A DNA stretch of 64,000 nucleotides from Branchiostoma lanceolatum. Its lineage: Eukaryota; Chordata; Leptocardii; Amphioxiformes; Branchiostomatidae. Position numbers and translations under genes: made by a program. The DNA is taken from positions 8,371,383-8,435,382 of the forward strand of contig NC_089732.1 of assembly GCF_035083965.1 (NCBI RefSeq). Reading direction: 5' to 3'. Under the pieces are notes generated by a model. The model made no database searches, had not been told where the DNA came from, and saw only the letters and a list, made by a program, of their open reading frames with translations. Positions 1 through 26,275 of the stretch are shown in pieces (position 1 is the stretch's first letter; every line of letters begins with the position of its first letter).

Positions 1-365
1 CTATATTGATTAAATTGTATGGATGACATCCACTTAGAACCCCAAAGCCGATGCGAGAGTGCGAATAAAAAGAAGTTTGGCACCGAAAAGATTGCGGCCT
101 AGATTGCGGCCTAGATTGTGGCCTGATTGCGGCCTACATTTTACTTTGCGGCCTACATTGTGACCTACAATTTGTGGCCGCAAAGTAAAGTTTAGGCCAC
201 AATGTAAAATGTAGGCCGCAATGTAGGCCGCAAAGTAAAATGTAGGCCGCAATGTAGGCCGCAAAGTAAAATGCAGTTGTAAGGAAGATTGATTCCAATG
301 GAACAGGATCTAGGAATGAGACCGTAACAACAGATTTGTAAAGGTCGACTTAAATTGAACTAAGG

Positions 366-3300
366 CTATATTGATTAAATTGTATGGATGACATCCACTT
401 AGAACCCCAAAGCCGATGCGAGTGTGCGAATAAAAAGAAGTTTGGTACCGAAAAGATTGCGGCCTAGATTGCGGCCTACATTGCGGCCTGATTGCGGCCT
501 ACATTGTGACCTACAATTTGTGGCCGCAAAGTAAGATTAAGGCCACAATGTAAAATGTAGGCCGCAATGTCGGCCGCAAACTAAAATGTAGGCCGCAATG
601 TAGGCCGCAAAGTAAAATGCAGTTGTAAGGAAGATTGATTCCAATGGAACAGCCTAACACAGGATCTAGGAATGAGACCGTAACAACAGATTTGTAAAGG
701 TCGACTTAAATTGAACTAAGGCTATATTGATTAAATTGTATGGATGACATCCACTTAGAACCCCAAAGCCGATGCGAGAGTGCGAATAAAAAGAAGCTTG
801 GCACCGAAAAGATTGCGGTCTAGATTGCGGCCTAGATTGCGGCCTGATTGCGGCCTACATTTTACTTTGCGGCCTACATTGTGACCTGCAATTTGTGGCC
901 GCAAAGTAAAGTTTAGGCCGCAATATAAAATGTAGGCCGCAATGTAGGCCGCAAAGTAAAATGTAGGCCGCAATGTAGGCCGCAAAGTAAAATGCAGTTG
1001 TAAGGAAGATTGATTCCAATGGAACAGGATCTAGGAATGAGACCGTAACAACAGATTTGTAAAGGTCGACTTAAATTGAACTAAGGCTATATTGATTAAA
1101 TTGTATGGATGACATCCACTTAGAACCCCAAAGCCGATGCGAGAGTGCGAATAAAAAGAAGTTTGGCACCGAAAAGATTGCGGCCTAGATTGCGGCCTAG
1201 ATTGCGGCCTGATTGCGGCCTACATTTTACTTTGCGGCCTACATTGTGACCTACAATTTGTGGCCGCAAATTAAAGTTTAGGCCGCAATGTAAAATGTAG
1301 GCCGCAATGTAGGCCGCAAAGTAAAATGTAGGCCGCAATGTAGGCCGCAAAGTAAAATGCAGTTGTAAGAAAGATTGATTCCAATGGAACAGGATCTAGG
1401 AATGTGACCGTAACAACAGATTAAAGGTCGACTTGAACTAAGGCTATATTGATTAAATTGTATGGATGACATCCACTTAGAACCCCAAAGCCGATGCGAG
1501 TGTGCGAAAAAAAAAGAAGTTTGGCACCAAAAAGATTGCGGCCTAGATATTGCGGCCTACATTGCGGCCTGCAGCTGATTGCGGCCTACATTTTACTTTG
1601 CGGCCTACATTGCGACCTGCAATTTGTGGCCGCAAAGTAAAGTTTAGGCCGCAATGTAAAATGTAGGCCGCAATGTAGGCCGCAAAGTAAAATGTAGGCC
1701 GCAATGTAGGCCGCAAAGTAAAATGCAGTTGTAAGGAAGATTGATTCCAATGGAACAAGATCTAGGAATGAGACCGTAACAACAGATTTGTAAAGGTCGA
1801 CTTAAATTGAACTAAGGCTATATTGATTAAATTGTATGGATGACATCCACTTAAAACCCCAAAGCCGATGCGAGTGTGCGAATAAAAAGAAGTTTGGCAC
1901 CGAAAAGATTGCGGCCTAGATTGCGGCCTACATTGCGGCCTGATTGCGGCCTACATTTTACTTTGCGGCCTACATTGTGACCTGCAATTTGTGGCCGCAA
2001 AGTAAAGTTTAGGCCGCAATGTAAAATGTAGGCCGCAATGTAGGCCGCAAAGTTAAATGTAGGCCGCAATGTAGGCCGCAAAGTAAAATGCAGTTGTAAG
2101 GAAGACTGATTCCAATGGAACAGGATCTAGGAATGAGACCGTAACAACAGATTTGTAAAGGTCGACTTGAACTAAGGCTATATTGATTAAATTGTATGGA
2201 TGACATCCAATTAGAACACCAAAGCCGATGCGAGAGTGCGAATAAAAAGAAGTTTGGCACCGAAAAGATTGCGGCCTAGATTGCGGCCTACATTGCGGCC
2301 TGATTGCGGCCTACATTTTACTTTGCGGCCTACATTGTGACCTACAATTTGTGGCCGCAAATTAAAGTTTAGGCCGCAATGTAAAATGTAGGCCGCAATG
2401 TAGGCCGCAAAGTAAAATGTAGGCCGCAATGTAGGCCGCAAAGTAAAATGCAGTTGTAAGGAAGATTGATTCCAATGGAACAGGATCTAGGAATGAGACC
2501 GTAACAATAGATTTGTAAAGGTCGACTTAAATTGAACTAAGGAACTATTGATTAAATTGTATGGATGACATCCACTTAGAACACCAAAGCCGATGCGAGA
2601 GTGCGAATAAAAAGAAGTTTGGCACCGAAAAGATTGCGGCCTAGATTGCGGCCTAGATTGCGGCCTAGATTGGGGCCTGATTGCGGCCTACATTTTACTT
2701 TGCGGCCTACATTGTGACCTGCAATTTGTGGCCGCAAAGTAAAATTTAGGCCGCAATGTAAAATGTAGGCCGCAATGTAGGCCGCAAAGTAAAATGTAGG
2801 CCGCAATGTAGGCCGCAAAGTAAAATGTAGTTGTAAGGAAGATTGATTCCAATGGAACAGGATCTAGGAATGAGACCGTAACAACAGATTTGTAAAGGTC
2901 GACTTGAACTAAGGCTATATTGATTAAATTGTATGGATGACATCCACTTAGAAGCCCAAAGCCGATGCGAGAGTGCGAATAAAAAGAAGTTTGGCACCGA
3001 AAAGATTGCGGCCTAGATTGCGGCCTAGATTGCGGCCTAGATTGGGGCCTGATTGCGGCCTACATTTTATTTTGCGGCCTACATTGTGACCTGCAATTTG
3101 TGGCCGCAAAGTAAAGTTTAGGCCGCAAAGTAAAATGTAGGCCGCAATGTAGGCCGCAAAGTAAAATGTAGGCCGCAATGTAGGCCGCAAAGTAAAATGC
3201 AGTTGTAAGGAAGATTGATTCCAATGGAACAGGATCTAGGAATGAGACCGTAACAACAGATTTGTAAAGGTCGACTTAAATTGAACTAAGGCTATATTGA

Positions 3301-6300
3301 TTAAATTGTATGGATGACATCCACTTAGAACCCCAAAGCCGATGCGAGAGTGCGAATAAAAAGAAGTTTGGCACCGAAAAGATTGCGGCCTAGATTGCGG
3401 CCTACATTGCGGCCTGATTGCGGCCTACATTTTACTTTGCGCCCTACATTGTGACCTACAATTTGTGGCCGCAAAGTAAAGTTTAGGCCGCAATGTAAAA
3501 TGTAGGCCGCAATGTAGGCCGCAAAGTAAAATGTAGGCCGCAATGTAGGCCGCAAAGTAAAATGCAGTTGTAAGGAAGATTAATTCCAATGGAACAGGAT
3601 CTAGGAATGAGACCGTAACAACAGATTTGTAAAGGTCGACTTGAACTAAGGCTATGTTGATTAAATTGTATGGATGACATCCACATAGAACCCCAAAGCC
3701 GATGCGAGAGTGCGAATAAAAAGAAGTTTGGCACCGAAAAGATTGCGGCCTAGATTGCGGCCTACATTGCGGCCTGATTGCGGCCTACATTTTACTTTGC
3801 GGCCTACATTGTGACCTACAATTTGTGGCCGCAAAGTAAAGTTTAGGCCGCAATGTAAAATGTAGGCCGCAATGTAGGCCGCAAAGTAAAATGTAGGCCG
3901 CAATGTAGGCCGCAAAGTAAAATGCAGTTGTCAGGAAGATTGATTCCAATGGAACAGGATCTAGGAATGAGACCGTAACAACAGATTTGTAAAGGTCGAC
4001 TTAAATTGAACTAAGGCTATATTGATTAGATTGTATGGATGACATCCACTTAGAACCCCAAAGCCGATGCGAGAGTGCGAATAAAAAGAAGTTTGGCACC
4101 GAAAAGATTGCGGCCTAGACTGCGATATACATTGCGGCCTGATTGCGGCCTGATTGCGGCCTACATTTCACTTTGCGGCCTTCATTGTGACCTACAATTT
4201 GTGGCCGCAAAGTAAAGTTTAGGCCGCAATGTAGGCCGCAAAGTAAAATGTAGGCCGCAATGTAGGCCGCAAAGTAAAATGCAGTTGTAAGGAAGATTGA
4301 TTCCAATGGAACAGGATCTAGGAATGAGTCCGTAACAACAGATTTGTAAAGGTCGACTTAAATTGAACTAAGGCTATATTGATTAAATTGTATGGATGAC
4401 ATCCACTTAGAACCCCAAAGCCGATGCGAGTGTGCGAATAAAAAGAAGTTTGGTACCGAAAAGATTGCGGCCTAGATTGTGGCCTACATTGCGGCCTGAT
4501 TGCGGCCTACATTGTGACCTGCAATTTGTGGCCGCAAATTAAAGTTTAGGCCGCAATGTAAAATGTAGGCCGCAATGTAGGCCGCAAAGTAAAATGTAGG
4601 CCGCAATGTAGGCCGCAAAGTAAAATGCAGTTGTAAGGAAGATTGATTCCAATGGAATAGGATCTAGGAATGAGACCGTAACAACAGATTTGTAAAGGTC
4701 GACTTGAACTAAGGCTATATTGATTAAATTGTATGGATGACATCCACTTAGAACCCCAAAGCCGATGCGAGAGTGCGAATAAAAAGAAGTTTGGCACCGA
4801 AAAGATTGCGGCCTAGATTGCGGCCTAGATTGCGGCCTGATTGCGGCCTACATTTTACTTTGCGGCCTACATTGTGACCTACAATTTGTGGCCGCAAAGT
4901 AAAGTTTAGGCCGCAATTTAAAATGTAGGCCGCAATGTAGGCCGCAAAGTAAAATGTAGGCCGCAATGTAGGCCGCAAAGTAAAATGCAGTTGTAAGGAA
5001 GATTGATTCCAATGGAACAGGATCTAGGAATGTGACCGTAACAACAGATTTGTAAAGGCCGACTTAAATTGAACCAAGGCTATATTGATTAAATTGTATG
5101 GATGACATCCACTTAGAACCCCAAAGCCGATGCGAGAGTGCGAATAAAAAGAAGTTTGGCACCGAAAAGATTGCGGCCTAGATTGCGGCCTAGATTGCGG
5201 CCTGATTGCGGCCTACATTTTACTTTGCGGCCTACATTGTGACCTACAATTTGTGGCCGCAAATTAAAGTTTAGGCCGCAATTTAAAATGTAGGCCGCAA
5301 TGTAGGCCGCAAAGTAAAATGTAGGCCGCAATGTAGGCCGCAAAGTAAAATGCAGTTGTAAGGAAGATTGATTCCAATGGAACAGGATCTAGGAATGTGA
5401 CCGTAACAACAGATTTGTAAAGGCCGACTTAAATTGAACCAAGGCTATATTGATTAAATTGTATGGATGACATCCACTTAGAACCCCAAAGCCGATGCGA
5501 GAGTGCGAATAAAAAGAAGTTTGGCACCGAAAAGATTGCGGCCTAGATTGCGGCGTACATTGCGGCCTGATTGCGGCCTACATTTCCCTTTGCGGCCTAC
5601 ATTGTGACCTGCAATTTGTGGCCGCAAAGTAAAGTTTAGGCCGCAATGTGAAATGTAGGCCGCAATGTAGGCCGCAAAGTAAAATGCAGTTGTAAGGAAG
5701 ATTGATTCCAATGGAACAGGATCTAGGAATGAGACCGTAACAACAGATTTGTAAAGGTCGACTTAAATTGAACTAAGGCTATATTGATTAAATTGTATGG
5801 ATGACATCCACTTAGAACCCCAAAGCCGATGCGAGTGTGCGAATAAAAAGAAGTTTGGTACCGAAAAGATTGCGGCCTAGATTGCGGCCTACATTGCGGC
5901 CTGATTGCGGCCTACATTGTGACCTACAATTTGTGGCCGCAAAGTAAGATTAAGGCCACAATGTAAAATGTAGGCCGCAATGTCGGCCGCAAACTAAAAT
6001 GTAGGCCGCAATGTAGGCCGCAAAGTAAAATGCAGTTGTAAGGAAGATTGATTCCAATGGAACAGCCTAACACAGGATCTAGGAATGAGACCGTAACAAC
6101 AGATTTGTAAAGGTCGACTTAAATTGAACTAAGGCTATATTGATTAAATTGTATGGATGACATCCGCTTAGAACCCCAAAGCCGATGCGAGAGTGCGAAT
6201 AAAAAGAAGTTTGGCACCGAAAAGATTGCGGCCTAGATTGCGGCCTAGATTGCGGCCTGATTGCGGCCTACATTTTACTTTGCGGCCTACATTGTGACCT

Positions 6301-9300
6301 GCAATTTGTGGCCGCAAAGTAAAGTTTAGGCCGCAATATAAAATGTAGGCCGCAATGTAGGCCGCAAAGTAAAATGTAGGCCGCAATGTAGGCCGCAAAG
6401 TAAAATGCAGTTGTAAGGAAGATTGATTCCAATGGAACAGGATCTAGGAATGAGACCGTAACAACAGATTTGTAAAGGTCGACTTAAATTGAACTAAGGC
6501 TATATTGATTAAATTGTATGGATGACATCCACTTAGAACCCCAAAGCCGATGCGAGAGTGCGAATAAAAAGAAGTTTGGCACCGAAAAGATTGCGGCCTA
6601 GATTGCGGCCTAGATTGCGGCCTGATTGCGGCCTACATTTTACTTTGCGGCCTACATTGTGACCTACAATTTGTGGCCGCAAATTAAAGTTTAGGCCGCA
6701 ATGTAAAATGTAGGCCGCAATGTAGGCCGCAAAGTAAAATGTAGGCCGCAATGTAGGCCGCAAAGTAAAATGCAGTTGTAAGGAAGATTGATTCCAATGG
6801 AACAGGATCTAGGAATGTGACCGTAACAACAGATTAAAGGTCGACTTGAACTAAGGGTATATTGATTAAATTGTATGGATGACATCCACTTAGAACCCCA
6901 AAGCCGATGCGAGTGTGCGAAAAAAAAAGAAGTTTGGCACCAAAAAGATTGCGGCCTAGATATTGCGGCCTACATTGCGGCCTGCAGCTGATTGCGGCCT
7001 ACATTTTACTTTGCGGCCTACATTGCGACCTGCAATTTGTGGCCGCAAAGTAAAGTTTAGGCCGCAATGTAAAATGTAGGCCGCAATGTAGGCCGCAAAG
7101 TAAAATGTAGGCCGCAATGTAGGCCGCAAAGTAAAATGCAGTTGTAAGGAAGATTGATTCCAATGGAACAAGATCTAGGAATGAGACCGTAACAACAGAT
7201 TTGTAAAGGTCGACTTAAATTGAACTAAGGCTATATTGATTAAATTGTATGGATGACATCCACTTAAAACCCCAAAGCCGATGCGAGTGTGCGAATAAAA
7301 AGAAGTTTGGCACCGAAAAGATTGCGGCCTAGATTGCGGCCTACATTGCGGCCTGATTGCGGCCTACATTTTACTTTGCGGCCTACATTGTGACCTGCAA
7401 TTTGTGGCCGCAAAGTAAAATTTAGGCCGCAATGTAAAATGTAGGCCGCAATGTAGGCCGCAAAGTTAAATGTAGGCCGCAATGTAGGCCGCAAAGTAAA
7501 ATGCAGTTGTAAGGAAGACTGATTCCAATGGAACAGGATCTAGGAATGAGACCGTAACAACAGATTTGTAAAGGTCGACTTGAACTAAGGCTATATTGAT
7601 TAAATTGTATGGATGACATCCAATTAGAACACCAAAGCCGATGCGAGAGTGCGAATAAAAAGAAGTTTGGCACCGAAAAGATTGCGGCCTAGATTGCGGC
7701 CTACATTGCGGCCTGATTGCGGCCTACATTTTACTTTGCGGCCTACATTGTGACCTACAATTTGTGGCCGCAAATTAAAGTTTAGGCCGCAATGTAAAAT
7801 GTAGGCCGCAATGTAGGCCGCAAAGTAAAATGTAGGCCGCAATGTAGGCCGCAAAGTAAAATGCAGTTGTAAGGAAGATTGATTCCAATGGAACAGGATC
7901 TAGGAATGAGACCGTAACAATAGATTTGTAAAGGTCGACTTAAATTGAACTAAGGAACTATTGATTAAATTGTATGGATGACATCCACTTAGAACACCAA
8001 AGCCGATGCGAGAGTGCGAATAAAAAGAAGTTTGGCACCGAAAAGATTGCGGCCTAGATTGCGGCCTAGATTGCGGCCTAGATTGGGGCCTGATTGCGGC
8101 CTACATTTTACTTTGCGGCCTACATTGTGACCTGCAATTTGTGGCCGCAAAGTAAAATTTAGGCCGCAATGTAAAATGTAGGCCGCAATGTAGGCCGCAA
8201 AGTAAAATGTAGGCCGCAATGTAGGCCGCAAAGTAAAATGTAGTTGTAAGGAAGATTGATTCCAATGGAACAGGATCTAGGAATGAGACCGTAACAACAG
8301 ATTTGTAAAGGTCGACTTGAACTAAGGCTATATTGATTAAATTGTATGGATGACATCCACTTAGAAGCCCAAAGCCGATGCGAGAGTGCGAATAAAAAGA
8401 AGTTTGGCACCGAAAAGATTGCGGCCTAGATTGCGGCCTAGATTGCGGCCTAGATTGGGGCCTGATTGCGGCCTACATTTTATTTTGCGGCCTACATTGT
8501 GACCTGCAATTTGTGGCCGCAAAGTAAAGTTTAGGCCGCAAAGTAAAATGTAGGCCGCAATGTAGGCCGCAAAGTAAAATGTAGGCCGCAATGTAGGCCG
8601 CAAAGTAAAATGCAGTTGTAAGGAAGATTGATTCCAATGGAACAGGATCTAGGAATGAGACCGTAACAACAGATTTGTAAAGGTCGACTTAAATTGAACT
8701 AAGGCTATATTGATTAAATTGTATGGATGACATCCACTTAGAACCCCAAAGCCGATGCGAGAGTGCGAATAAAAAGAAGTTTGGCACCGAAAAGATTGCG
8801 GCCTAGATTGCGGCCTACATTGCGGCCTGATTGCGGCCTACATTTTACTTTGCGCCCTACATTGTGACCTACAATTTGTGGCCGCAAAGTAAAGTTTAGG
8901 CCGCAATGTAAAATGTAGGCCGCAATGTAGGCCGCAAAGTAAAATGTAGGCCGCAATGTAGGCCGCAAAGTAAAATGCAGTTGTAAGGAAGATTAATTCC
9001 AATGGAACAGGATCTAGGAATGAGACCGTAACAACAGATTTGTAAAGGTCGACTTGAACTAAGGCTATGTTGATTAAATTGTATGGATGACATCCACATA
9101 GAACCCCAAAGCCGATGCGAGAGTGCGAATAAAAAGAAGTTTGGCACCGAAAAGATTGCGGCCTAGATTGCGGCCTACATTGCGGCCTGATTGCGGCCTA
9201 CATTTTACTTTGCGGCCTACATTGTGACCTACAATTTGTGGCCGCAAAGTAAAGTTTAGGCCGCAATGTAAAATGTAGGCCGCAATGTAGGCCGCAAAGT

Positions 9301-10490
9301 AAAATGTAGGCCGCAATGTAGGCCGCAAAGTAAAATGCAGTTGTCAGGAAGATTGATTCCAATGGAACAGGATCTAGGAATGAGACCGTAACAACAGATT
9401 TGTAAAGGTCGACTTAAATTGAACTAAGGCTATATTGATTAGATTGTATGGATGACATCCACTTAGAACCCCAAAGCCGATGCGAGAGTGCGAATAAAAA
9501 GAAGTTTGGCACCGAAAAGATTGCGGCCTAGACTGCGATATACATTGCGGCCTGATTGCGGCCTGATTGCGGCCTACATTTCACTTTGCGGCCTTCATTG
9601 TGACCTACAATTTGTGGCCGCAAAGTAAAGTTTAGGCCGCAATGTAGGCCGCAAAGTAAAATGTAGGCCGCAATGTAGGCCGCAAAGTAAAATGCAGTTG
9701 TAAGGAAGATTGATTCCAATGGAACAGGATCTAGGAATGAGTCCGTAACAACAGATTTGTAAAGGTCGACTTAAATTGAACTAAGGCTATATTGATTAAA
9801 TTGTATGGATGACATCCACTTAGAACCCCAAAGCCGATGCGAGTGTGCGAATAAAAAGAAGTTTGGTACCGAAAAGATTGCGGCCTAGATTGTGGCCTAC
9901 ATTGCGGCCTGATTGCGGCCTACATTGTGACCTGCAATTTGTGGCCGCAAATTAAAGTTTAGGCCGCAATGTAAAATGTAGGCCGCAATGTAGGCCGCAA
10001 AGTAAAATGTAGGCCGCAATGTAGGCCGCAAAGTAAAATGCAGTTGTAAGGAAGATTGATTCCAATGGAATAGGATCTAGGAATGAGACCGTAACAACAG
10101 ATTTGTAAAGGTCGACTTGAACTAAGGCTATATTGATTAAATTGTATGGATGACATCCACTTAGAACCCCAAAGCCGATGCGAGAGTGCGAATAAAAAGA
10201 AGTTTGGCACCGAAAAGATTGCGGCCTAGATTGCGGCCTAGATTGCGGCCTGATTGCGGCCTACATTTTACTTTGCGGCCTACATTGTGACCTACAATTT
10301 GTGGCCGCAAATTAAAGTTTAGGCCGCAATTTAAAATGTAGGCCGCAATGTAGGCCGCAAAGTAAAATGTAGGCCGCAATGTAGGCCGCAAAGTAAAATG
10401 CAGTTGTAAGGAAGATTGATTCCAATGGAACAGGATCTAGGAATGTGACCGTAACAACAGATTTGTAAAGGCCGACTTAAATTGAACCAA
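366..10490. repeat. Higher-order repeat: 5413-bp block (about 15 monomers) and its second copy
   Basis: Variant monomers recur in the same order 5413 bp apart. The short unit at 366 returns at 5779. The unit with a GCAGCTG insert and GCACCAAAAAG at about 1530-1575 returns at about 6943-6990, and the GGAACTATTG variant at 2541 returns at 7954. The register holds to about 10160. There the second copy has lost one monomer: two adjacent near-identical units at 4748 and 5113 correspond to one at 10161. The unit at 10526 combines diagnostic changes of the 5478-type and 1851-type units, as expected from unequal exchange. Copy limits are approximate. Confidence 0.85.
1087..1443. repeat. Representative monomer with a 35-bp perfect inverted repeat
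   Basis: In this unit bases 1212-1246 and 1305-1339 are exact reverse complements (35 of 35) around a 58-nt spacer. The left arm begins ATTGCGGCCTACATTTTACT and the right arm ends AAAATGTAGGCCGCAAT. Nearly every other monomer has the same pair with at most a few changes, for example TTCC for TTAC near 5584. The layout predicts a long hairpin or cruciform in each monomer and therefore about 70 along the array. Confidence 0.93.
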
Positions 10491-13400
10491 GGCTATATTG
10501 ATTAAATTGTATGGATGACATCCACTTAGAACCCCAAAGCCGATGCGAGAGTGCGAATAAAAAGAAGTTTGGCACCGAAAAGATTGCGGCCTAGATTGCG
10601 GCGTACATTGCGGCCTGATTGCGGCCTACATTTCCCTTTGCGGCCTACATTGTGACCTGCAATTTGTGGCCGCAAAGTAAAGTTTAGGCCGCAATGTGAA
10701 ATGTAGGCCGCAATGTAGGCCGCAAAGTTAGATGTAGGCCGCAATGTAGGCCGCAAAGTAAAATGCAGTTGTAAGGAAGACTGATTCCAATGGAACAGGA
10801 TCTAGGAATGAGACCGTAACAACAGATTTGTAAAGGTCGACTTGAACTAAGGCTATATTGATTAAATTGTATGGATGACATCCACTTAGAACACCAAAGC
10901 CGATGCGAGAGTGCGAATAAAAAGAAGTTTGGCACCGAAAAGATTGCGGCCTAGATTGCGGCCTACATTGCGGCCTGATTGCGGCCTACATTTTACTTTG
11001 CGGCCTACATTGTGACCTACAATTTGTGGCCGCAAATTAAAGTTTAGGCCGCAATGTAAAATGTAGGCCGCAATGTAGGCCGCAAAGTAAAATGTAGGCC
11101 GCAATGTAGGCCGCAAAGTAAAATGCAGTTGTAAGGAAGATTGATTCCAATGGAACAGGATCTAGGAATGAGACCGTAACAATAGATTTGTAAAGGTCGA
11201 CTTAAATTGAACTAAGGAACTATTGATTAAATTGTATGGATGACATCCACTTAGAACACCAAAGCCGATGCGAGAGTGCGAATAAAAAGAAGTTTGGCAC
11301 CGAAAAGATTGCGGCCTAGATTGCGGCCTAGATTGCGGCCTAGATTGGGGCCTGATTGCGGCCTACATTTTACTTTGCGGCCTACATTGTGACCTGCAAT
11401 TTGTGGCCGCAAAGTAAAATTTAGGCCGCAATGTAAAATGTAGGCCGCAATGTAGGCCGCAAAGTAAAATGTAGGCCGCAATGTAGGCCGCAAAGTAAAA
11501 TGTAGTTGTAAGGAAGATTGATTCCAATGGAACAGGATCTAGGAATGAGACCGTAACAACAGATTTGTAAAGGTCGACTTGAACTAAGGCTATATTGATT
11601 AAATTGTATGGATGACATCCACTTAGAAGCCCAAAGCCGATGCGAGAGTGCGAATAAAAAGAAGTTTGGCACCGAAAAGATTGCGGCCTAGATTGCGGCC
11701 TAGATTGCGGCCTAGATTGGGGCCTGATTGCGGCCTACATTTTATTTTGCGGCCTACATTGTGACCTGCAATTTGTGGCCGCAAAGTAAAGTTTAGGCCG
11801 CAATGTAAAATGTAGGCCGCAATGTAGGCCGCAAAGTAAAATGTAGGCCGCAATGTAGACCGCAAAGTAAAATGCAGTTGTAAGGAAGATTGATTCCAAT
11901 GGAACAGGATCTAGGAATGAGACCGTAACAACAGATTTGTAAAGGTCGACTTAAATTAAACTAAGGCTATATTGATTAAATTGTATGGATGACATCAACT
12001 TAGAAGCCCAAAGCCGATGCAAGAGTGCGAATAAAAAGAAGTTTGGCACCGAAAAGATTGCGGCCTAGATTGCGGCCTACATTGCGGCCTGATTGCGGCC
12101 TACATTTTACTTTGCGGCCTACATTGTGACCTACAATTTGTGGCCGCAAAGTAAAGTTTAGGCCGCAATGTAAAATGTAGGCCGCAATGTAGGCCGCAAA
12201 GTAAAATGTAGGCCGCAATGTAGGCCGCAAGGTAAAATGCAGTTGTAAGGAAGATTGATTCCAATGGAACAGGATCTAGGAATGAGACCGTAACAACAGA
12301 TTTGTAAAGGTCGACTTAAATTGAACTAAGGCTATATTGATTAAATTGTATGGATGACATCCACTTAGAACCCCAAAGCCGATGCGAGAGTGCGAATAAA
12401 AAATAGTTTGGCACCGAAAAGATTGCGGCCTAGATTGCGGCCTACATTGCGGCCTGATTGCGGCCTACATTTTACTTTGCGGCCTACATTTTGACCTGCA
12501 ATTTGTGGTCGCAAAGTAAAGTTTAGGCCGCAATGTAAAATGTAGGCCGCAATGTAGGCCGCAAAGTAAAATGTAGGCCGCAATGTAGGCCGCAAAGTAA
12601 AATGCAGTTGTAAGGAAGATTGATTCCAATGGAACAGCCTAACACAGGATCTAGGAATGAGACCGTAACAACAGATTTGTAAAGGTCGACTTAAATTGAA
12701 CTAAGGCTATATTGATTAAATTGTATGGATGACATCCACTTAGAACCCCAAAGCCGATGCGAGAGTGCGAATAAAAAGAAGTTTGGCACCGAAAAGATTG
12801 CGGCCTAGATTGTGGCCTACATTGCGGCCTGATTGCGGCCTACATTGTGACCTGCAATTTGTGGCCGCAAATTAAAGTTTAGGCCGCAATGTAAAATGTA
12901 GGCCGCAATGTAGGCCGCAAAGTAAAATGTAGGCCGCAATGTAGGCCGCAAAGTAAAATGCAGTTGTAAGGAAGATTGATTCCAATGGAATAGGATCTAG
13001 GAATGAGACCGTAACAACAGATTTGTAAAGGTCGACTTGAACTAAGGCTATATTGATTAAATTGTATGGATGACATCCACTTAGAACCCCAAAGCCGATG
13101 CGAGAGTGCGAATAAAAAGAAGTTTGGCACCGAAAAGATTGCGGCCTAGATTGCGGCCTAGATTGTGGCCTGATTGCGGCCTACATTTTACTTTGCGGCC
13201 TACATTGTGACCTACAATTTGTGGCCGCAAAGTAAAGTTTAGGCCACAATGTAAAATGTAGGCCGCAATGTAGGCCGCAAAGTAAAATGTAGGCCGCAAT
13301 GTAGGCCGCAAAGTAAAATGCAGTTGTAAGGAAGATTGATTCCAATGGAACAGGATCTAGGAATGAGACCGTAACAACAGATTTGTAAAGGTCGACTTAA

Positions 13401-16400
13401 ATTGAACTAAGGCTATATTGATTAAATTGTATGGATGACATCCACTTAGAACCCCAAAGCCGATGCGAGTGTGCGAATAAAAAGAAGTTTGGTACCGAAA
13501 AGATTGCGGCCTAGATTGCGGCCTACATTGCGGCCTGATTGCGGCCTACATTGTGACCTACAATTTGTGGCCGCAAAGTAAGATTAAGGCCACAATGTAA
13601 AATGTAGGCCGCAATGTCGGCCGCAAACTAAAATGTAGGCCGCAATGTAGGCCGCAAAGTAAAATGCAGTTGTAAGGAAGATTGATTCCAATGGAACAGC
13701 CTAACACAGGATCTAGGAATGAGACCGTAACAACAGATTTGTAAAGGTCGACTTAAATTGAACTAAGGCTATATTGATTAAATTGTATGGATGACATCCA
13801 CTTAGAACCCCAAAGCCGATGCGAGAGTGCGAATAAAAAGAAGCTTGGCACCGAAAAGATTGCGGTCTAGATTGCGGCCTAGATTGCGGCCTGATTGCGG
13901 CCTACATTTTACTTTGCGGCCTACATTGTGACCTGCAATTTGTGGCCGCAAAGTAAAGTTTAGGCCGCAATATAAAATGTAGGCCGCAATGTAGGCCGCA
14001 AAGTAAAATGTAGGCCGCAATGTAGGCCGCAAAGTAAAATGCAGTTGTAAGGAAGATTGATTCCAATGGAACAGGATCTAGGAATGAGACCGTAACAACA
14101 GATTTGTAAAGGTCGACTTAAATTGAACTAAGGCTATATTGATTAAATTGTATGGATGACATCCACTTAGAACCCCAAAGCCGATGCGAGAGTGCGAATA
14201 AAAAGAAGTTTGGCACCGAAAAGATTGCGGCCTAGATTGCGGCCTAGATTGCGGCCTGATTGCGGCCTACATTTTACTTTGCGGCCTACATTGTGACCTA
14301 CAATTTGTGGCCGCAAATTAAAGTTTAGGCCGCAATGTAAAATGTAGGCCGCAATGTAGGCCGCAAAGTAAAATGTAGGCCGCAATGTAGGCCGCAAAGT
14401 AAAATGCAGTTGTAAGGAAGATTGATTCCAATGGAACAGGATCTAGGAATGTGACCGTAACAACAGATTAAAGGTCGACTTGAACTAAGGCTATATTGAT
14501 TAAATTGTATGGATGACATCCACTTAGAACCCCAAAGCCGATGCGAGTGTGCGAAAAAAAAAGAAGTTTGGCACCAAAAAGATTGCGGCCTAGATATTGC
14601 GGCCTACATTGCGGCCTGCAGCTGATTGCGGCCTACATTTTACTTTGCGGCCTACATTGCGACCTGCAATTTGTGGCCGCAAAGTAAAGTTTAGGCCGCA
14701 ATGTAAAATGTAGGCCGCAATGTAGGCCGCAAAGTAAAATGTAGGCCGCAATGTAGGCCGCAAAGTAAAATGCAGTTGTAAGGAAGATTGATTCCAATGG
14801 AACAAGATCTAGGAATGAGACCGTAACAACAGATTTGTAAAGGTCGACTTAAATTGAACTAAGGCTATATTGATTAAATTGTATGGATGACATCCACTTA
14901 AAACCCCAAAGCCGATGCGAGTGTGCGAATAAAAAGAAGTTTGGCACCGAAAAGATTGCGGCCTAGATTGCGGCCTACATTGCGGCCTGATTGCGGCCTA
15001 CATTTTACTTTGCGGCCTACATTGTGACCTGCAATTTGTGGCCGCAAAGTAAAGTTTAGGCCGCAATGTAAAATGTAGGCCGCAATGTAGGCCGCAAAGT
15101 TAAATGTAGGCCGCAATGTAGGCCGCAAAGTAAAATGCAGTTGTAAGGAAGACTGATTCCAATGGAACAGGATCTAGGAATGAGACCGTAACAACAGATT
15201 TGTAAAGGTCGACTTGAACTAAGGCTATATTGATTAAATTGTATGGATGACATCCAATTAGAACACCAAAGCCGATGCGAGAGTGCGAATAAAAAGAAGT
15301 TTGGCACCGAAAAGATTGCGGCCTAGATTGCGGCCTACATTGCGGCCTGATTGCGGCCTACATTTTACTTTGCGGCCTACATTGTGACCTACAATTTGTG
15401 GCCGCAAATTAAAGTTTAGGCCGCAATGTAAAATGTAGGCCGCAATGTAGGCCGCAAAGTAAAATGTAGGCCGCAATGTAGGCCGCAAAGTAAAATGCAG
15501 TTGTAAGGAAGATTGATTCCAATGGAACAGGATCTAGGAATGAGACCGTAACAATAGATTTGTAAAGGTCGACTTAAATTGAACTAAGGAACTATTGATT
15601 AAATTGTATGGATGACATCCACTTAGAACACCAAAGCCGATGCGAGAGTGCGAATAAAAAGAAGTTTGGCACCGAAAAGATTGCGGCCTAGATTGCGGCC
15701 TAGATTGCGGCCTAGATTGGGGCCTGATTGCGGCCTACATTTTACTTTGCGGCCTACATTGTGACCTGCAATTTGTGGCCGCAAAGTAAAATTTAGGCCG
15801 CAATGTAAAATGTAGGCCGCAATGTAGGCCGCAAAGTAAAATGTAGGCCGCAATGTAGGCCGCAAAGTAAAATGTAGTTGTAAGGAAGATTGATTCCAAT
15901 GGAACAGGATCTAGGAATGAGACCGTAACAACAGATTTGTAAAGGTCGACTTGAACTAAGGCTATATTGATTAAATTGTATGGATGACATCCACTTAGAA
16001 GCCCAAAGCCGATGCGAGAGTGCGAATAAAAAGAAGTTTGGCACCGAAAAGATTGCGGCCTAGATTGCGGCCTAGATTGCGGCCTAGATTGGGGCCTGAT
16101 TGCGGCCTACATTTTATTTTGCGGCCTACATTGTGACCTGCAATTTGTGGCCGCAAAGTAAAGTTTAGGCCGCAAAGTAAAATGTAGGCCGCAATGTAGG
16201 CCGCAAAGTAAAATGTAGGCCGCAATGTAGGCCGCAAAGTAAAATGCAGTTGTAAGGAAGATTGATTCCAATGGAACAGGATCTAGGAATGAGACCGTAA
16301 CAACAGATTTGTAAAGGTCGACTTAAATTGAACTAAGGCTATATTGATTAAATTGTATGGATGACATCCACTTAGAACCCCAAAGCCGATGCGAGAGTGC

Positions 16401-19400
16401 GAATAAAAAGAAGTTTGGCACCGAAAAGATTGCGGCCTAGATTGCGGCCTACATTGCGGCCTGATTGCGGCCTACATTTTACTTTGCGCCCTACATTGTG
16501 ACCTACAATTTGTGGCCGCAAAGTAAAGTTTAGGCCGCAATGTAAAATGTAGGCCGCAATGTAGGCCGCAAAGTAAAATGTAGGCCGCAATGTAGGCCGC
16601 AAAGTAAAATGCAGTTGTAAGGAAGATTAATTCCAATGGAACAGGATCTAGGAATGAGACCGTAACAACAGATTTGTAAAGGTCGACTTGAACTAAGGCT
16701 ATGTTGATTAAATTGTATGGATGACATCCACATAGAACCCCAAAGCCGATGCGAGAGTGCGAATAAAAAGAAGTTTGGCACCGAAAAGATTGCGGCCTAG
16801 ATTGCGGCCTACATTGCGGCCTGATTGCGGCCTACATTTTACTTTGCGGCCTACATTGTGACCTACAATTTGTGGCCGCAAAGTAAAGTTTAGGCCGCAA
16901 TGTAAAATGTAGGCCGCAATGTAGGCCGCAAAGTAAAATGTAGGCCGCAATGTAGGCCGCAAAGTAAAATGCAGTTGTCAGGAAGATTGATTCCAATGGA
17001 ACAGGATCTAGGAATGAGACCGTAACAACAGATTTGTAAAGGTCGACTTAAATTGAACTAAGGCTATATTGATTAGATTGTATGGATGACATCCACTTAG
17101 AACCCCAAAGCCGATGCGAGAGTGCGAATAAAAAGAAGTTTGGCACCGAAAAGATTGCGGCCTAGACTGCGATATACATTGCGGCCTGATTGCGGCCTGA
17201 TTGCGGCCTACATTTCACTTTGCGGCCTTCATTGTGACCTACAATTTGTGGCCGCAAAGTAAAGTTTAGGCCGCAATGTAGGCCGCAAAGTAAAATGTAG
17301 GCCGCAATGTAGGCCGCAAAGTAAAATGCAGTTGTAAGGAAGATTGATTCCAATGGAACAGGATCTAGGAATGAGTCCGTAACAACAGATTTGTAAAGGT
17401 CGACTTAAATTGAACTAAGGCTATATTGATTAAATTGTATGGATGACATCCACTTAGAACCCCAAAGCCGATGCGAGTGTGCGAATAAAAAGAAGTTTGG
17501 TACCGAAAAGATTGCGGCCTAGATTGTGGCCTACATTGCGGCCTGATTGCGGCCTACATTGTGACCTGCAATTTGTGGCCGCAAATTAAAGTTTAGGCCG
17601 CAATGTAAAATGTAGGCCGCAATGTAGGCCGCAAAGTAAAATGTAGGCCGCAATGTAGGCCGCAAAGTAAAATGCAGTTGTAAGGAAGATTGATTCCAAT
17701 GGAATAGGATCTAGGAATGAGACCGTAACAACAGATTTGTAAAGGTCGACTTGAACTAAGGCTATATTGATTAAATTGTATGGATGACATCCACTTAGAA
17801 CCCCAAAGCCGATGCGAGAGTGCGAATAAAAAGAAGTTTGGCACCGAAAAGATTGCGGCCTAGATTGCGGCCTAGATTGCGGCCTGATTGCGGCCTACAT
17901 TTTACTTTGCGGCCTACATTGTGACCTACAATTTGTGGCCGCAAATTAAAGTTTAGGCCGCAATTTAAAATGTAGGCCGCAATGTAGGCCGCAAAGTAAA
18001 ATGTAGGCCGCAATGTAGGCCGCAAAGTAAAATGCAGTTGTAAGGAAGATTGATTCCAATGGAACAGGATCTAGGAATGTGACCGTAACAACAGATTTGT
18101 AAAGGCCGACTTAAATTGAACCAAGGCTATATTGATTAAATTGTATGGATGACATCCACTTAGAACCCCAAAGCCGATGCGAGAGTGCGAATAAAAAGAA
18201 GTTTGGCACCGAAAAGATTGCGGCCTAGATTGCGGCGTACATTGCGGCCTGATTGCGGCCTACATTTCCCTTTGCGGCCTACATTGTGACCTGCAATTTG
18301 TGGCCGCAAAGTAAAGTTTAGGCCGCAATGTGAAATGTAGGCCGCAATGTAGGCCGCAAAGTTAGATGTAGGCCGCAATGTAGGCCGCAAAGTAAAATGC
18401 AGTTGTAAGGAAGACTGATTCCAATGGAACAGGATCTAGGAATGAGACCGTAACAACAGATTTGTAAAGGTCGACTTGAACTAAGGCTATATTGATTAAA
18501 TTGTATGGATGACATCCACTTAGAACACCAAAGCCGATGCGAGAGTGCGAATAAAAAGAAGTTTGGCACCGAAAAGATTGCGGCCTAGATTGCGGCCTAC
18601 ATTGCGGCCTGATTGCGGCCTACATTTTACTTTGCGGCCTACATTGTGACCTACAATTTGTGGCCGCAAATTAAAGTTTAGGCCGCAATGTAAAATGTAG
18701 GCCGCAATGTAGGCCGCAAAGTAAAATGTAGGCCGCAATGTAGGCCGCAAAGTAAAATGCAGTTGTAAGGAAGATTGATTCCAATGGAACAGGATCTAGG
18801 AATGAGACCGTAACAATAGATTTGTAAAGGTCGACTTAAATTGAACTAAGGAACTATTGATTAAATTGTATGGATGACATCCACTTAGAACACCAAAGCC
18901 GATGCGAGAGTGCGAATAAAAAGAAGTTTGGCACCGAAAAGATTGCGGCCTAGATTGCGGCCTAGATTGCGGCCTAGATTGGGGCCTGATTGCGGCCTAC
19001 ATTTTACTTTGCGGCCTACATTGTGACCTGCAATTTGTGGCCGCAAAGTAAAATTTAGGCCGCAATGTAAAATGTAGGCCGCAATGTAGGCCGCAAAGTA
19101 AAATGTAGGCCGCAATGTAGGCCGCAAAGTAAAATGTAGTTGTAAGGAAGATTGATTCCAATGGAACAGGATCTAGGAATGAGACCGTAACAACAGATTT
19201 GTAAAGGTCGACTTGAACTAAGGCTATATTGATTAAATTGTATGGATGACATCCACTTAGAAGCCCAAAGCCGATGCGAGAGTGCGAATAAAAAGAAGTT
19301 TGGCACCGAAAAGATTGCGGCCTAGATTGCGGCCTAGATTGCGGCCTAGATTGGGGCCTGATTGCGGCCTACATTTTATTTTGCGGCCTACATTGTGACC

Positions 19401-20000
19401 TGCAATTTGTGGCCGCAAAGTAAAGTTTAGGCCGCAAAGTAAAATGTAGGCCGCAATGTAGGCCGCAAAGTAAAATGTAGGCCGCAATGTAGGCCGCAAA
19501 GTAAAATGCAGTTGTAAGGAAGATTGATTCCAATGGAACAGGATCTAGGAATGAGACCGTAACAACAGATTTGTAAAGGTCGACTTAAATTGAACTAAGG
19601 CTATATTGATTAAATTGTATGGATGACATCCACTTAGAACCCCAAAGCCGATGCGAGAGTGCGAATAAAAAGAAGTTTGGCACCGAAAAGATTGCGGCCT
19701 AGATTGCGGCCTACATTGCGGCCTGATTGCGGCCTACATTTTCCTTTGCGCCCTACATTGTGACCTACAATTTGTGGCCGCAAAGTAAAGTTTAGGCCGC
19801 AATGTAAAATGTAGGCCGCAATGTAGGCCGCAAAGTAAAATGTAGGCCGCAATGTAGGCCGCAAAGTAAAATGCAGTTGTAAGGAAGATTAATTCCAATG
19901 GAACAGGATCTAGGAATGAGACCGTAACAACAGATTTGTAAAGGTCGACTTGAACTAAGGCTATGTTGATTAAATTGTATGGATGACATCCACATAGAAC
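5779..20000. repeat. Higher-order repeat: 7634-bp block and its second copy
   Basis: From about 5779 to 13412 and again from 13413 to about 19970 the same order of monomer variants appears with a 7634-bp step. Examples are the unit at 9528 with its copy at 17162, 10161 with 17795, 10526 with 18160 and 11623 with 19257. The first units of the second copy (13081-14898) carry variants private to the very first block, such as AAGCTTGG at about 796 and 13843, at an offset of 13047 bp, which is 5413 plus 7634. The array is therefore a mosaic of segment duplications. After about 19970 the order changes. Confidence 0.8.
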
Positions 20001-23000
20001 CCCAAAGCCGATGCGAGAGTGCGAATAAAAAGAAGTTTGGCACCGAAAAGATTGCGGCCTAGATTGCGGCCTACATTGCGGCCTGATTGCGGCCTACATT
20101 TTACTTTGCGGCCTACATTGTGACCTACAATTTGTGGCCGCAAAGTAAAGTTTAGGCCGCAATGTAAAATGTAGGCCGCAATGTAGGCCGTAAAGTAAAA
20201 TGTAGGCCGCAATGTAGGCCGCAAAGTAAAATACAGTTGTTAGGAAGATTGATTCCAATGGAACAGCCTAACACAGGATCTAGGAATGAGACCGTAACAA
20301 CAGATTTGTAAAGGTCGACTTAAATTGAACTAAGGCTATATTGATTAAATTGTATGGATGACATCCACTTAGAACCCCAAAGCCGATGCGAGAGTGCGAA
20401 TAAAAAGAAGTTTGGCACCGAAAAGATTGCGGCCTAGATTGCGGCCTACATTGCGGCCTGATTGCGGCCTACATTTTACTTTGCGGCCTGCATTGTGACC
20501 TACAATTTGTGGCCGCAAAGTAAAGTTTAGGCCGCAATGTAAAATGTAGGCCGCAATGTAGGCCGCAAAGTAAAATGTAGGCCGCAATGTAGGCCGCAAA
20601 GTAAAATGCAGTTGTAAGGAAGATTGATTCCAATGGAACAGGATCTAGGAATGAGACCGTAACAACAGATTTGTAAAGGTCGACTTAAATTGAACTAAGG
20701 CTATATTGATTAAATTGTATGGATGACATCCACTTAGAACCCCAAAGCCGATGCGAGAGTGCGAATAAAAAAGAAGTTTGGCACCGAAAAGATTGCGGCC
20801 TAGATTGCGGCCTGATTGCGGCCTACATTTTACTTTGCGGCCTACATTGTGTCCTACAATTTGTGGCAGCAAAGTAAAGTTTAGGCCGCAATGTAAAATG
20901 TAGGCCGCAATGTAGGCCGCAAAGTAAAATGTAGGCCACAATGTAGGCCGCAAAGTAAAATACAGTTGTTAGGAAGATTGATTCCAATGGAACAGGATCT
21001 AGGAATGAGACCGTAACAACAGATTTGTAAAGGTCGACTTGAACTAAGGCTATATTGATTAAATTGTATGGATGACATCCACTTAGAACCCCAAAGCCGA
21101 TGCGAGAGTGCGAATAAAAAGAAGTTTGGCACCGAAAAGATTGCGGCCTAGATTGCGGCCTACATTGCGGCCTGATTGCGGCCTACATTTTACTTTGCGG
21201 CCTACATTGTGACCTACAATTTGTGGCCGCAAATTAAAGTTTAGGCCGCAATGTAAAATGTAGGCCGCAATGTAGGCCGCAAAGTAAAATGTAGGCCGCA
21301 ATGTAGGCCGCAAAGTAAAATGCAGTTGTAAGGAAGATTGATTCCAATGGAACAGGATCTAGGAATGTGACCGTAACAACGGATTAAAGGTCGACTTGAA
21401 CTAAGGCTATATTGATTAAATTGTATGGATGACATCCACTTAGAACCCCAAAGCCGATGCGAGTGTGCGAAAAAAAAAGAAGTTTGGCACCAAAAAGATT
21501 GCGGCCTAGATATTGCGGCCTACATTGCGGCCTGCAGCTGATTGCGGCCTACATTTTACTTTGCGGCCTACATTGCGACCTGCAATTTGTGGCCGCAAAG
21601 TAAAGTTTAGGCCGCAATGTAAAATGTAGGCCGCAATGTAGGCCGCAAAGTAAAATGTAGGCCGCAATGTAGGCCGCAAAGTAAAATACAGTTGTAAGGA
21701 AGATTGATTCCAATGGAACAGGATCTAGGAATGAGACCGTAACAACAGATTTGTAAAGGTCGACTTAAATTGAACTAAGGCTATATTGATTAAATTGTAT
21801 GGATGACATCCACTTAGAACCCCAAAGCCGATGCGAGTGTGCGAATAAAAAGAAGTTTGGCACCGAAAAGATTGCGGCCTAGATTGCGGCCTGATTGCGG
21901 CCTACATTTTAATTTGCGGCCTACATTGTGACCTGCAATTTGTGGCCGCAAAGTAAAGTTTAGGCCGCAATGTGAAATGTAGGCCGCAATGTAGGCCGCA
22001 AAGTTAAATGTAGGCCGCAATGTAGGCCGCAAAGTAAAATGCAGTTGTAAGGAAGACTGATTCCAATGGAACAGGATCTAGGAATGAGACCGTAACAACA
22101 GATTTGTAAAGGTCGACTTGAACTAAGGCTATATTGATTAAATTGTATGGATGACATCCACTTAGAACACCAAAGCCGATGCGAGAGTGCGAATAAAAAG
22201 AAGTTTGGCACCGAAAAGATTGCGGCCTAGATTGCGGCCTACATTGCGGCCTGATTGCGGCCTACATTTTACTTTGCGGCCTACATTGTGACCTACAATT
22301 TGTGGCCGCAAATTAAAGTTTAGGCCGCAATGTAAAATGTAGGCCGCAATGTAGGCCGCAAAGTAAAATGTAGGCCGCAATGTAGGCCGCAAAGTAAAAT
22401 GCAGTTGTAAGGAAGATTGATTCCAATGGAACAGGATCTAGGAATGAGACCGTAACAACAGATTTGTAAAGGTCGACTTAAATTGAAATAAGGAACTATT
22501 GATTAAATTGTATGGATGACATCCACTTAGAACACCAAAGCCGATGCGAGAGTGCGAATAAAAAGAAGTTTGGCACCGAAAAGATTGCGGCCTAGATTGC
22601 GGCCTAGATTGCGGCCTAGATTGGGGCCTGATTGCGGCCTACATTTTACTTTGCGGCCTACATTGTGACCTGCAATTTGTGGCCGCAAAGTAAAATTTAG
22701 GCCGCAATGTAAAATGAAGGCCGCAATGTAGGCCGCAAAGTAAAATGTAGGCCGCAATGTAGGCCGCAAAGTAAAATGTAGTTGTAAGGAAGATTGATTC
22801 CAATGGAACAGGATCTAGGAATGAGACCGTAACAACAGATTTGTAAAGGTCGACTTGAACTAAGGCTATATTGATTAAATTGTATGGATGACATCCACTT
22901 AGAAGCCCAAAGCCGATGCGAGAGTGCGAATAAAAAGAAGTTTGGCACCGAAAAGATTGCGGCCTAGATTGCGGCCTAGATTGCGGCCTAGATTGGGGCC

Positions 23001-25922
23001 TGATTGCGGCCTACATTTTATTTTGCGGCCTACATTGTGACCTGCAATTTGTGGCCGCAAAGTAAAGTTTAGGCCGCAAAGTAAAATGTAGGCCGCAATG
23101 TAGGCCGCAAAGTAAAATGTAGGCCGCAATGTAGGCCGCAAAGTAAAATGCAGTTGTAAGGAAGATTGATTCCAATGGAACAGGATCTAGGAATGAGACC
23201 GTAACAATAGATTTGTAAAGGTCGACTTAAATTGAACTAAGGAACTATTGATTAAATTGTATGGATGACATCCACTTAGAACCCCAAAGCCGATGCGAGA
23301 GTGCGAATAAAAAGAAGTTTGGCACCGAAAAGATTGCGGCCTAGATTGCGGCCTACATTGCGGCCTGATTGCGGCCTACATTTTACTTTGCGGCCTACAT
23401 TGTGACCTACAATTTGTGGCAGCAAAGTAAAGTTTAGGCCGCAATGTAAAATGTAGGCCGCAATGTAGGCCGCAAAGTAAAATGTAGGCCGCAATGTAGG
23501 CCGCAAAGTAAAATACAGTTGTTAGGAAGATTGATTCCAATGGAACAGCCTAACACAGGATCTAGGAATGAGACCGTAACAACAGATTTGTAAAGGTCGA
23601 CTTAAATTGAACTAAGGCTATATTGATTAAATTGTATGGATGACATCCACTTAGAACCCCAAAGCCGATGCGAGAGTGCGAATAAAAAGAAGTTTGGCAC
23701 CGAAAAGATTGCGGCCTAGATTGCGGCCTACATTGCGGCCTGATTGCGGCCTACATTTTACTTTGCGGCCTACATTGTGACCTACAATTTGTGGCCGCAA
23801 AGTAAAGTTTAGGCCGCAATGTAAAATGTAGGCCGCAATGTAGGCCGCAAAGTAAAATGTAGGCCGCAATGTAGGCCGCAAAGTAAAATGCAGTTGTAAG
23901 GAAGATTGATTCCAATGGAACAGGATCTAGGAATGAGACCGTAACAACAGATTTGTAAAGGTCGACTTAAATTGAACTAAGGCTATATTGATTAAATTGT
24001 ATGGATGACATCCACTTAGAAGCCCAAAGCCGATGCGAGTGTGCGAATAAAAAGAAGTTTGGCACCGAAAAGATTGCGGCCTAGATTGCGGCCTATATTG
24101 CGGCCTGATTGCGGCCTACATTGTGACCTACAATTTGTGGCCGCAAAGTAAGATTTAGGCCACAATGTAAAATGTAGGCCGCAAAGTAAAATGTAGGCCG
24201 CAATGTAGGCCGCAAAGTAAAATGCAGTTGTAAGGAAGATTGATTCCAATGGAACAGGATCTAGGAATGAGACCGTAACAACAGATTTGTAAAGGTCGAC
24301 TTAAATTGAACTAAGGCTATATTGATTAAATTGTATGGATGACATCCACTTAGAACCCCAAAGCCGATGCGAGTGTGCGAATAAAAAGAAGTTTGGCACC
24401 GAAAAGATTGCGGCCTAGATTGCGGCCTAGATTGGGGCCTGATTGCGGCCTACATTTCTCTTTGCGGCCTACATTGTGACCTACAATTTGTGGCCGCAAA
24501 GTAAAGTTTAGGCCGCAATGTAAAATGTAGGCCGCAATGTAGGCCGCAAAGTAAAATGTAGGCCGCAATGTAGGCCGCAAAGTAAAATACAGTTGTAAGG
24601 AAGATTAATTCCAATGGAACAGGATCTAGGAATGAGACCGTAACAACAGATTTGTAAAGGTCGACTTGAACTAAGGCTATATTGATTAAATTGTATGGAT
24701 GACATCCACTTAGAACCCCAAAGCCGATGCGAGAGTGCGAATAAAAAGAAGTTTGGCACCGAAAAGATTGCGGCCTAGATTGCGGCCTACATTGCGGCCT
24801 GATTGCGGCCTACATTTTACTTTGCGGCCTACATTGTGACCTACAATTTGTGGCAGCAAAGTAAAGTTTAGGCCGCAATGTAAAATGTAGGCCGCAACGT
24901 AGGCCGCAAAGTAAAATGTAGGCCGCAATGTAGGCCGCAAAGTAAAATGCAGTTGTAAGGAAGATTGATTCCAATGGAACAGGATCTAGGAATGAGACCG
25001 TAACAACAGATTTGTAAAGGTCGACTTAAATTGAACTAAGGCTATATTGATTAAATTGTATGGATGACATCCACTTAGAAGCCCAAAGCCGATGCGAGAG
25101 TGCGAATAAAAAGAAGTTTGGCACCGAAAAGATTGCGGCCTACATTGCGGCCTGATTGCGGCCTACATTTTACTTTGCGGCTTACATTGTGACCTACAAT
25201 TTGTGGCCGCAAAGTAAGATTTAGGCCACAATGTAAAATGTAGGCCGCAATGTAGGCCGCAAAGTAAAATGTAGGCCGCAATGTAGGCCGCAAAGTAAAA
25301 TGCAGTTGTAAGGAAGATTGATTCCAATGGAACAGGATCTAGGAATGAGACCGTAACAACAGATTTGTAAAGGTCGATTAAATTGAACTAAGGCTATATT
25401 GATTAAATTGTATGGATGACATCCACTTAGAACCCCAAAGCCGATGCGAGAGTGCGAATAAAAAGAAGTTTGGCACCGAAAAGATTGCGGCCTAGATTGC
25501 GGCCTACATTGCGGCCTACATTTTACTTTGCGGCTTACATTGTGACCTACAATTTGTGGCCGCAAAGTAAAGTTTAGGCCGCAATGTAAAATGTAGGCCG
25601 CAATGTAGGCCGCAAAGTAAAATGTAGGCCGCAAAGTAAAATGCAGTTGTAAGGAAGATTGATTCCAATGGAACAGCCTAACACAGTACAGGATCTAGGA
25701 ATGAGACTGTAACAACAGATTTGTAAAGGTCGACTTAAATTGAACTAAGGCTATATTGATTAAATTGTATGGATGACATCCACTTAGAAGCCCAAAGCCG
25801 ATGCGAGTGTGCGAATAAAAAGAAGTTTGGCACCGAAAAGATTGCGGCCTAGATTGCGGCCTATATTGCGGCCTGATTGCGGCCTACATTGTGACCTACA
25901 ATTTGTGGCCGCAAAGTAAGAT

Positions 25923-26275
25923 TCCTTACAACTGCATTTTACTTTGCGGCCTACATTGCGGCCTACATTTTACTTTGTGGCCTACATTGCGGCCTACATT
26001 TTACATTGCGGCCTAAACTTTACTTTGCGGCCACAAATTGTAGGTCACAATGTAGGCCGCAAAGTAAAATGTAGGCCGCAATCAGGCCGCAATGTAGGCC
26101 GCAATCTAGGCCGCAATCTTTTCGGTGCCAAACTTCTTTTTATTCGCACTCTCGCATTGGCTTTGGGGTTCTAAGCGGATGTCATCCATACAATTTAATC
26201 AATATAGCCTTAGTTCAATTTAAGTCGACCTTTACAAATCTGTTGTTACGGTCTCATTCCTAGATCCTGTGTTAG
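25923..26275 (-). repeat. Terminal inverted monomer of the array
   Basis: The last direct monomer breaks off after GCCGCAAAGTAAGATT at about 25922. The sequence then continues with CCTTACAACTGCATTTTAC, the reverse complement of the monomer's 3' part. A full monomer follows in reverse orientation through TCAATATAGCCTTAGTTC (about 26202-26219) and ends at CCTAGATCCTGTGTTAG (26259-26275). This is the only inverted copy in the window and it forms the junction with the NHL exon. Confidence 0.93.

Follow-up and report, generated by a model that had tools for sequence, protein, structure and literature searches.

The first 26 kb of the 64,000-nucleotide window (the whole stretch of Branchiostoma lanceolatum DNA that was analyzed) is occupied by a tandem array of hairpin-forming monomers, which is probably (a probability of roughly 70%) a young, homogenizing satellite in a gene-rich stretch, generated by unequal exchange or slippage, with a foldback or MITE-like unit as its plausible seed. 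Its repeats are organized as a hierarchy in which opposed 12- and 19-bp sub-repeats make up a foldback, the foldback is contained in a 365-bp monomer, and monomers recur in blocks of ∼14–15. Doubt attaches to the length of the array but not to its existence, and the array has a richer order than first described: the multi-monomer blocks, a right-hand edge made up of monomers lacking exact twins, and an inverted terminal monomer were all missed in the earlier note on this DNA.

Organization of the array

The array runs head to tail on the forward strand from 1 to 25924 and comprises 71 complete monomers (334–377 bp, consensus 365 bp) followed by one 174-bp partial monomer. TRF reported a single array at 1–25890 with a period of 365 and 71.4 copies, and a monomer anchor recurred 72 times on the forward strand, from 6 to 25756, and once in inverted orientation at 26176 (0-based positions). 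Since the start of the array as seen is the left edge of the window, 26 kb is a lower bound; the initial description of about 72 monomers over about 26 kb thus resolves into 71 complete monomers, one partial and one inverted, with the length standing as a minimum. Forty-four distinct sequences were found among the 72 forward-strand monomer pieces, and pairwise substitution identity among the 71 complete monomers averaged 96.9%, with a lowest value of 93.5%. The longest stop-free stretch in the array was 157 codons. These are the features of a satellite, i.e., a long head-to-tail run of similar noncoding monomers.

G+C content was 43.7% in the array and 41.2% in the flank, and the CpG observed/expected ratio was 0.98 in the array versus 0.55 in the flank, the array value partly mirroring the unit itself because the sub-repeats carry CpG. 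CpG columns of the monomer alignment exhibited no excess of transitions (7 of 34, as compared to 22 of 125 other C/G columns; p = 0.80), in a tally that takes no account of the relatedness of copies, and CpG decay as a mark of germline methylation was rejected on this basis. The array displays no sign of methylation decay, consistent with its being youthful or unmethylated.

Three near-identical blocks of ∼14–15 monomers each (∼5.1–5.3 kb) were detected on the forward strand by an ungapped lag scan of the array against itself: copy 1 at 1–5282, copy 2 at 5631–10695 (lag 5413 from copy 1), and copy 3 at 13048–18329 (lag 13047 from copy 1). Copies 1 and 3 differ by 8 mismatches over 5282 bp (99.85% identity), copy 2 differs from 218–5282 of copy 1 by 19 mismatches over 5065 bp (99.62%), and the longer segments 5631–12325 and 13265–19959, at a lag of 7634, differ by 25 (99.63%). 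In contrast, substitution identity among the first 15 monomers averages 96.7%, so that blocks resemble one another more closely (99.6–99.85%) than do the monomers within them, a signature of multi-monomer block duplication. Successive block lags of 5413 bp (15 monomers) and 7634 bp (21 monomers) are irregular and do not form a regular tandem order; the arrangement is therefore higher-order-like only, less regular than the classic kind. Alleles in lancelets diverge by several percent, and by that measure the block copies would be younger than a typical pair of alleles. From this one assembly we infer a recent expansion.

The right-hand edge of the array (19601–25924, forward strand), made up of 17 complete monomers and the terminal partial monomer, differs from its interior. 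An exact twin elsewhere in the array was found for 44 of the 54 inner monomers versus none of the 17 edge monomers, as expected from unequal exchange. Unique monomers are also present, such as m16, which lies 36 alignment columns from its nearest relative with 31 consensus columns deleted.

A foldback in every monomer

Inverted arms of at least 35 nt with up to two mismatches were present in 60 of the 71 complete monomers, the remaining 11 reaching 26–30 nt. Perfect arms of at least 34 nt were found in 36 of the 71, and perfect 35-nt arms separated by a 58-nt spacer in 31. The earlier note had assigned a perfect or near-perfect 35-bp inverted repeat to each monomer, which holds for the 60 with at most two mismatches, the exact 35/58 geometry being confined to the 31. 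This geometry forms the perfectly matched core of a larger foldback, which spans roughly consensus positions 89–275. By reading, the left arm is composed of ATTGCGGCCTAC-like 12-mers and a 19-mer and the right arm of their reverse complements; a more fitting description of the monomer is a foldback whose arms consist of 12- and 19-bp sub-repeats in opposed orientation. In all 71 monomers, the center of the foldback is bridged by 47–72 base pairs.

When folded as DNA, the consensus reached −91.1 kcal/mol, as compared to −37.9 ± 4.1 kcal/mol for 200 dinucleotide shuffles. An example monomer-length segment containing one foldback (727–1091, forward strand) reached −151.5 kcal/mol when folded as RNA (z = −12.8 against 100 dinucleotide shuffles), and letter-shuffled monomers (n = 200) never yielded perfect arms longer than 12 nt. 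Among 103 flank segments of 365 bp, a control that splits long repeats at segment borders, three reached at least 20 nt (longest 32), and a search of the whole flank returned 22 inverted pairs of at least 22 nt, including a perfect pair of 50 nt and one of 59 nt at 95%. DNA folding placed 11 of the 103 flank segments below −50 kcal/mol, with a lowest value of −97.7 kcal/mol, and the monomers at −63.7 to −96.7 kcal/mol. Because the flank has their equals, single hairpins of such strength are not unique to the array; what is special about the array hairpins is their regular recurrence, not their individual strength.

Variation in the hairpin

Pairing was assessed over 72 predicted pairs in 43 distinct aligned rows, from an alignment of the 71 complete monomers that left out the inverted terminal one. 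The reference pair was retained in 2835 cells, broken in 84, replaced by another Watson–Crick pair in 3, and changed in a compensatory manner in 1; a further 173 cells were gapped. Covariation was thus nearly absent (1 compensatory change in 88 variant cells), and the foldback was not less variable than the remainder of the monomer (41 of 187 columns variable inside versus 38 of 178 outside; p = 0.90). Variation in the array carries no sign of selection on hairpin pairing, in a comparison where few variable stem pairs and the youth of the array leave little power to detect weak constraint. A selected hairpin or structured RNA was rejected on the near absence of compensatory change, the equal variability of the foldback, and the lack of an Rfam match. 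Of the proposal that the array could form some 70 cruciforms or long structured transcripts, the structural potential is borne out, and a function for the hairpins goes unsupported by variation at the predicted pairs.

The same alignment contained 18 distinct indel types, 11 of them (by hand count) in the foldback at consensus 102–250, approximately the number expected for the 51% of the monomer that the foldback occupies. Nine of these 11 measured 11, 12, 19, or 31 bp, lengths that correspond to one or two sub-repeats, and the arms therefore change in length by gain and loss of sub-repeats. The seven indels outside the foldback measured 1, 1, 1, 3, 5, 10, and 15 bp.

The right-hand boundary and neighboring genes

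A single inverted monomer terminates the array (25922–26275, reverse strand), with 99.15% identity to 23550–23903 by BLAST. The last forward-strand monomer breaks off within its own foldback near 25924, and the left inversion breakpoint lies in the foldback of this partial monomer, with ∼2 bp of shared sequence at the joint as judged by eye. The inverted copy aligns to array monomers up to 26275, exactly the array end first given. Open coding sequence for an NHL β-propeller, the C-terminal part of a TRIM2/3/71-like protein, extends from 26276 to 26880 on the forward strand, confirming the earlier placement of the array directly against a coding exon. The stop-to-stop frame 26224–26880 contains NHL repeats (Pfam, E = 5.9e-16) and matched, among solved structures, the NHL domains of Thin, TRIM71, TRIM3, and TRIM2; it corresponds to the C-terminal part of such a protein, and upstream exons, if any, lie outside the window; the gene may also have been truncated. 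None of the 15 printed alignments of 25901–26400 to the array passes 26275 into the coding sequence.

Two AG dinucleotides, at 26262–26263 and 26274–26275, both leave the NHL frame open and are in the same phase (phase 1, determined by hand), and either could be a candidate splice acceptor. For this reason, the foldback satellite may be pictured within an intron of a TRIM-NHL gene, with the inverted terminal monomer supplying the 3′ splice site, an arrangement that we consider quite unlikely. If true, a fast-changing hairpin array would set the splicing or length of a coding gene, and would constitute a satellite-scale counterpart of the lancelet mirages described below and a route to new exon boundaries.

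Within ∼26 kb to the right of the array lie sequences for diphthamide synthesis, SRPRB, a bZIP factor, DMAP1, and a carboxyl transferase; of nine frames compared to Pfam, two were without a match. The original impression that the array does not sit in a heterochromatic desert is accordingly correct on the right side, which is gene-rich for ∼26 kb.

Other repeats in the window

Several further repeats were observed in the flank. At the SANT exon of DMAP1, on the reverse strand, a 64-bp tandem repeat is present in three copies (43997–44189), each containing the 3′ end of the exon (YYNICSKLTK) followed by GT. By analogy, this triplicated exon/intron boundary appears to resemble the lancelet “mirages,” described in the available parts of two accounts for Adh3, globin, and troponin C, with a similar case in PGBD5 (PMC3087553, PMC3902484); DMAP1 is not named in those parts. 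The structure is in itself a hint of a lancelet origin of the DNA. A second tandem array, of 127 bp × 5.9, occupies 44662–45405, and three of its six units carry a near-perfect ∼41-bp palindrome (20-nt arms, 1-nt loop, up to two mismatches). An inverted repeat with perfect 50-nt arms (100% complementary) and a loop of 5 nt lies at 35704–35808 and would be a very recent inverted duplication, a structural element, or an assembly artefact. Two related MITE-like elements, at 47377–47591 (215 bp) and 51639–51849 (211 bp), start with TACTGTAAAT and end with ATTTACAGTA, and a start similar to both, TTACTGTAAATGCAGAAATG, is found beside the DMAP1 repeat on the reverse strand near 43986. Nested long inverted repeats at 49732–50448 (59 nt at 95%, 50 nt at 90%, and 39 nt at 87%) look like a MITE-like element of ∼500 bp or more.

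Origin of the array and alternative explanations

Unequal exchange or replication slippage acting at several scales would both make and homogenize an array of this kind. The foldback may have arisen as, or from, a foldback or MITE-like element, tandem duplication of which would have seeded the satellite. Its hairpin probably raises local instability, to which the sub-repeat-length indels in the arms and the inversion breakpoint in the foldback may be attributed, and would be a by-product of how the foldback arose and of that instability, not a structure under selection. There is no need of a host function to account for the array.

A transposon seed is suggested by analogy: the monomer has the long inverted arms with internal repeats (the 12/19-bp sub-repeats) that characterize foldback and MITE elements. 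A three-monomer query (361–1460) against 26281–64000 returned short matches only (E about 5) and no other copy, and the unique part of the monomer yielded no inverted repeat of at least 7 bp. The only target-site-like repeat is the 7-bp AAGATTG at consensus 88 and 285, which overlaps the first sub-repeat and could be due to chance. The arms could equally stem from an inversion within a minisatellite.

Among the alternatives, a shorter real array may have been inflated by duplicated contigs, through expansion or misjoining in the assembly. Such an error would fit the near identity of blocks 1 and 3, which differ at only 8 positions over 5282 bp, and the lone inverted monomer at the edge. However, the block copies differ by 8, 19, and 25 substitutions, and contig copying would not create unique monomers such as m16; both observations argue against simple assembly duplication, leaving room for errors in length, and this explanation is considered unlikely. 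It is improbable, too, that the array belongs to the centromere or pericentromere and that its dyad symmetry contributes to centromere specification. The array does extend past the left edge of the window, but its right side is gene-rich, with the sequences named above lying within ∼26 kb. In addition, the CENP-B-box core motif occurred, at up to two mismatches, nowhere in the array versus 46 times in the flank, and a CENP-B-type box in the array was rejected. Many centromeres need no CENP-B box, and its absence is for that reason a weak argument. Higher-order repeats and dyad symmetry are each known from some centromeric satellites (PMC4053949, PMC13081366, PMC9070824), and the available parts of the latter two sources place dyad-rich satellites at or near centromeres; those of PMC9070824, however, report for its species, in Drosophila, that dyads are enriched on the Y centromere only.

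Least probable, to the point of being very doubtful, is a role in which structured or double-stranded transcripts (hairpin small RNAs) from the array regulate the neighboring gene or silence related sequences. Such a role would be in keeping with the strong RNA fold of a monomer-length segment (−151.5 kcal/mol, z = −12.8), but runs counter to the scarcity of covariation, the undiminished variability of the foldback, and the lack of an Rfam family at the gathering threshold. If the array is indeed a young satellite grown from a foldback unit, it offers a readable snapshot of a hairpin-unit satellite being built at several scales beside genes, and the preserved unique monomers and terminal inversion would make it possible to test hairpins as starting points of tandem growth and of inversions. 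The array alone establishes neither a new kind of element nor a function.

Comparison with known systems

Database comparison yielded no Rfam match in the window at the gathering threshold, no exact 32-base match to the monomer in viral contigs, no exact 28-base match in a prokaryote genome collection, and no megablast match among plasmids to a 701-base stretch of the array. The monomer family, which the earlier note did not recognize, is thus without a match in these four sets, none of which is a eukaryotic repeat library. No such monomer or 365-bp lancelet satellite appeared in the titles and abstract openings among the literature matches listed, which include few subscription journals, and the main text of Melters et al. 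(PMC4053949) mentions neither amphioxus, lancelet, nor Branchiostoma. The array looks like a young satellite in active reshuffling and of a known general kind, not a new type of functional element.

Several described systems share individual features with it, as judged from the available parts of the respective sources. As in the amphioxus “mirage” minisatellites, tandem repeats meet an exon boundary (PMC3087553, PMC3902484); mirage units hold the exon/intron boundary itself, whereas the present monomer is without neighboring coding sequence and is not a mirage in that sense. Primate centromeric repeats likewise arrange divergent monomers in near-identical multi-monomer blocks (PMC4053949), but the present blocks are irregularly spaced and built from a foldback monomer. 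The macro-dyad satellites of Tribolium also combine inverted symmetry with hairpin-capable satellite DNA (PMC13081366); there, the symmetry lies between long arrays of tens of kb, whereas here it lies within monomers and in one terminal inverted monomer. MITE-derived satellites include miDNA4 of Xenopus tropicalis (PMC9659126), in which, as may be the case here, a short inverted-repeat sequence is a possible seed of a tandem array; the MITE is documented for miDNA4 and inferred for the present array. Tetris of Drosophila virilis is a foldback element whose internal repeats gave rise to satellite arrays containing as many as 66 copies (PMC4079207). In the Tetris/TIR-220 system, the satellite unit is a ∼220-bp repeat within one arm and a transposon with target-site duplications was found, whereas here each 365-bp monomer contains a whole foldback and no transposon copy was found in the window. 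The two systems nevertheless have in common inverted arms with internal tandem repeats tied to satellite arrays of kb size, and unequal exchange has been proposed for Tetris/TIR-220 as well (PMC4079207).
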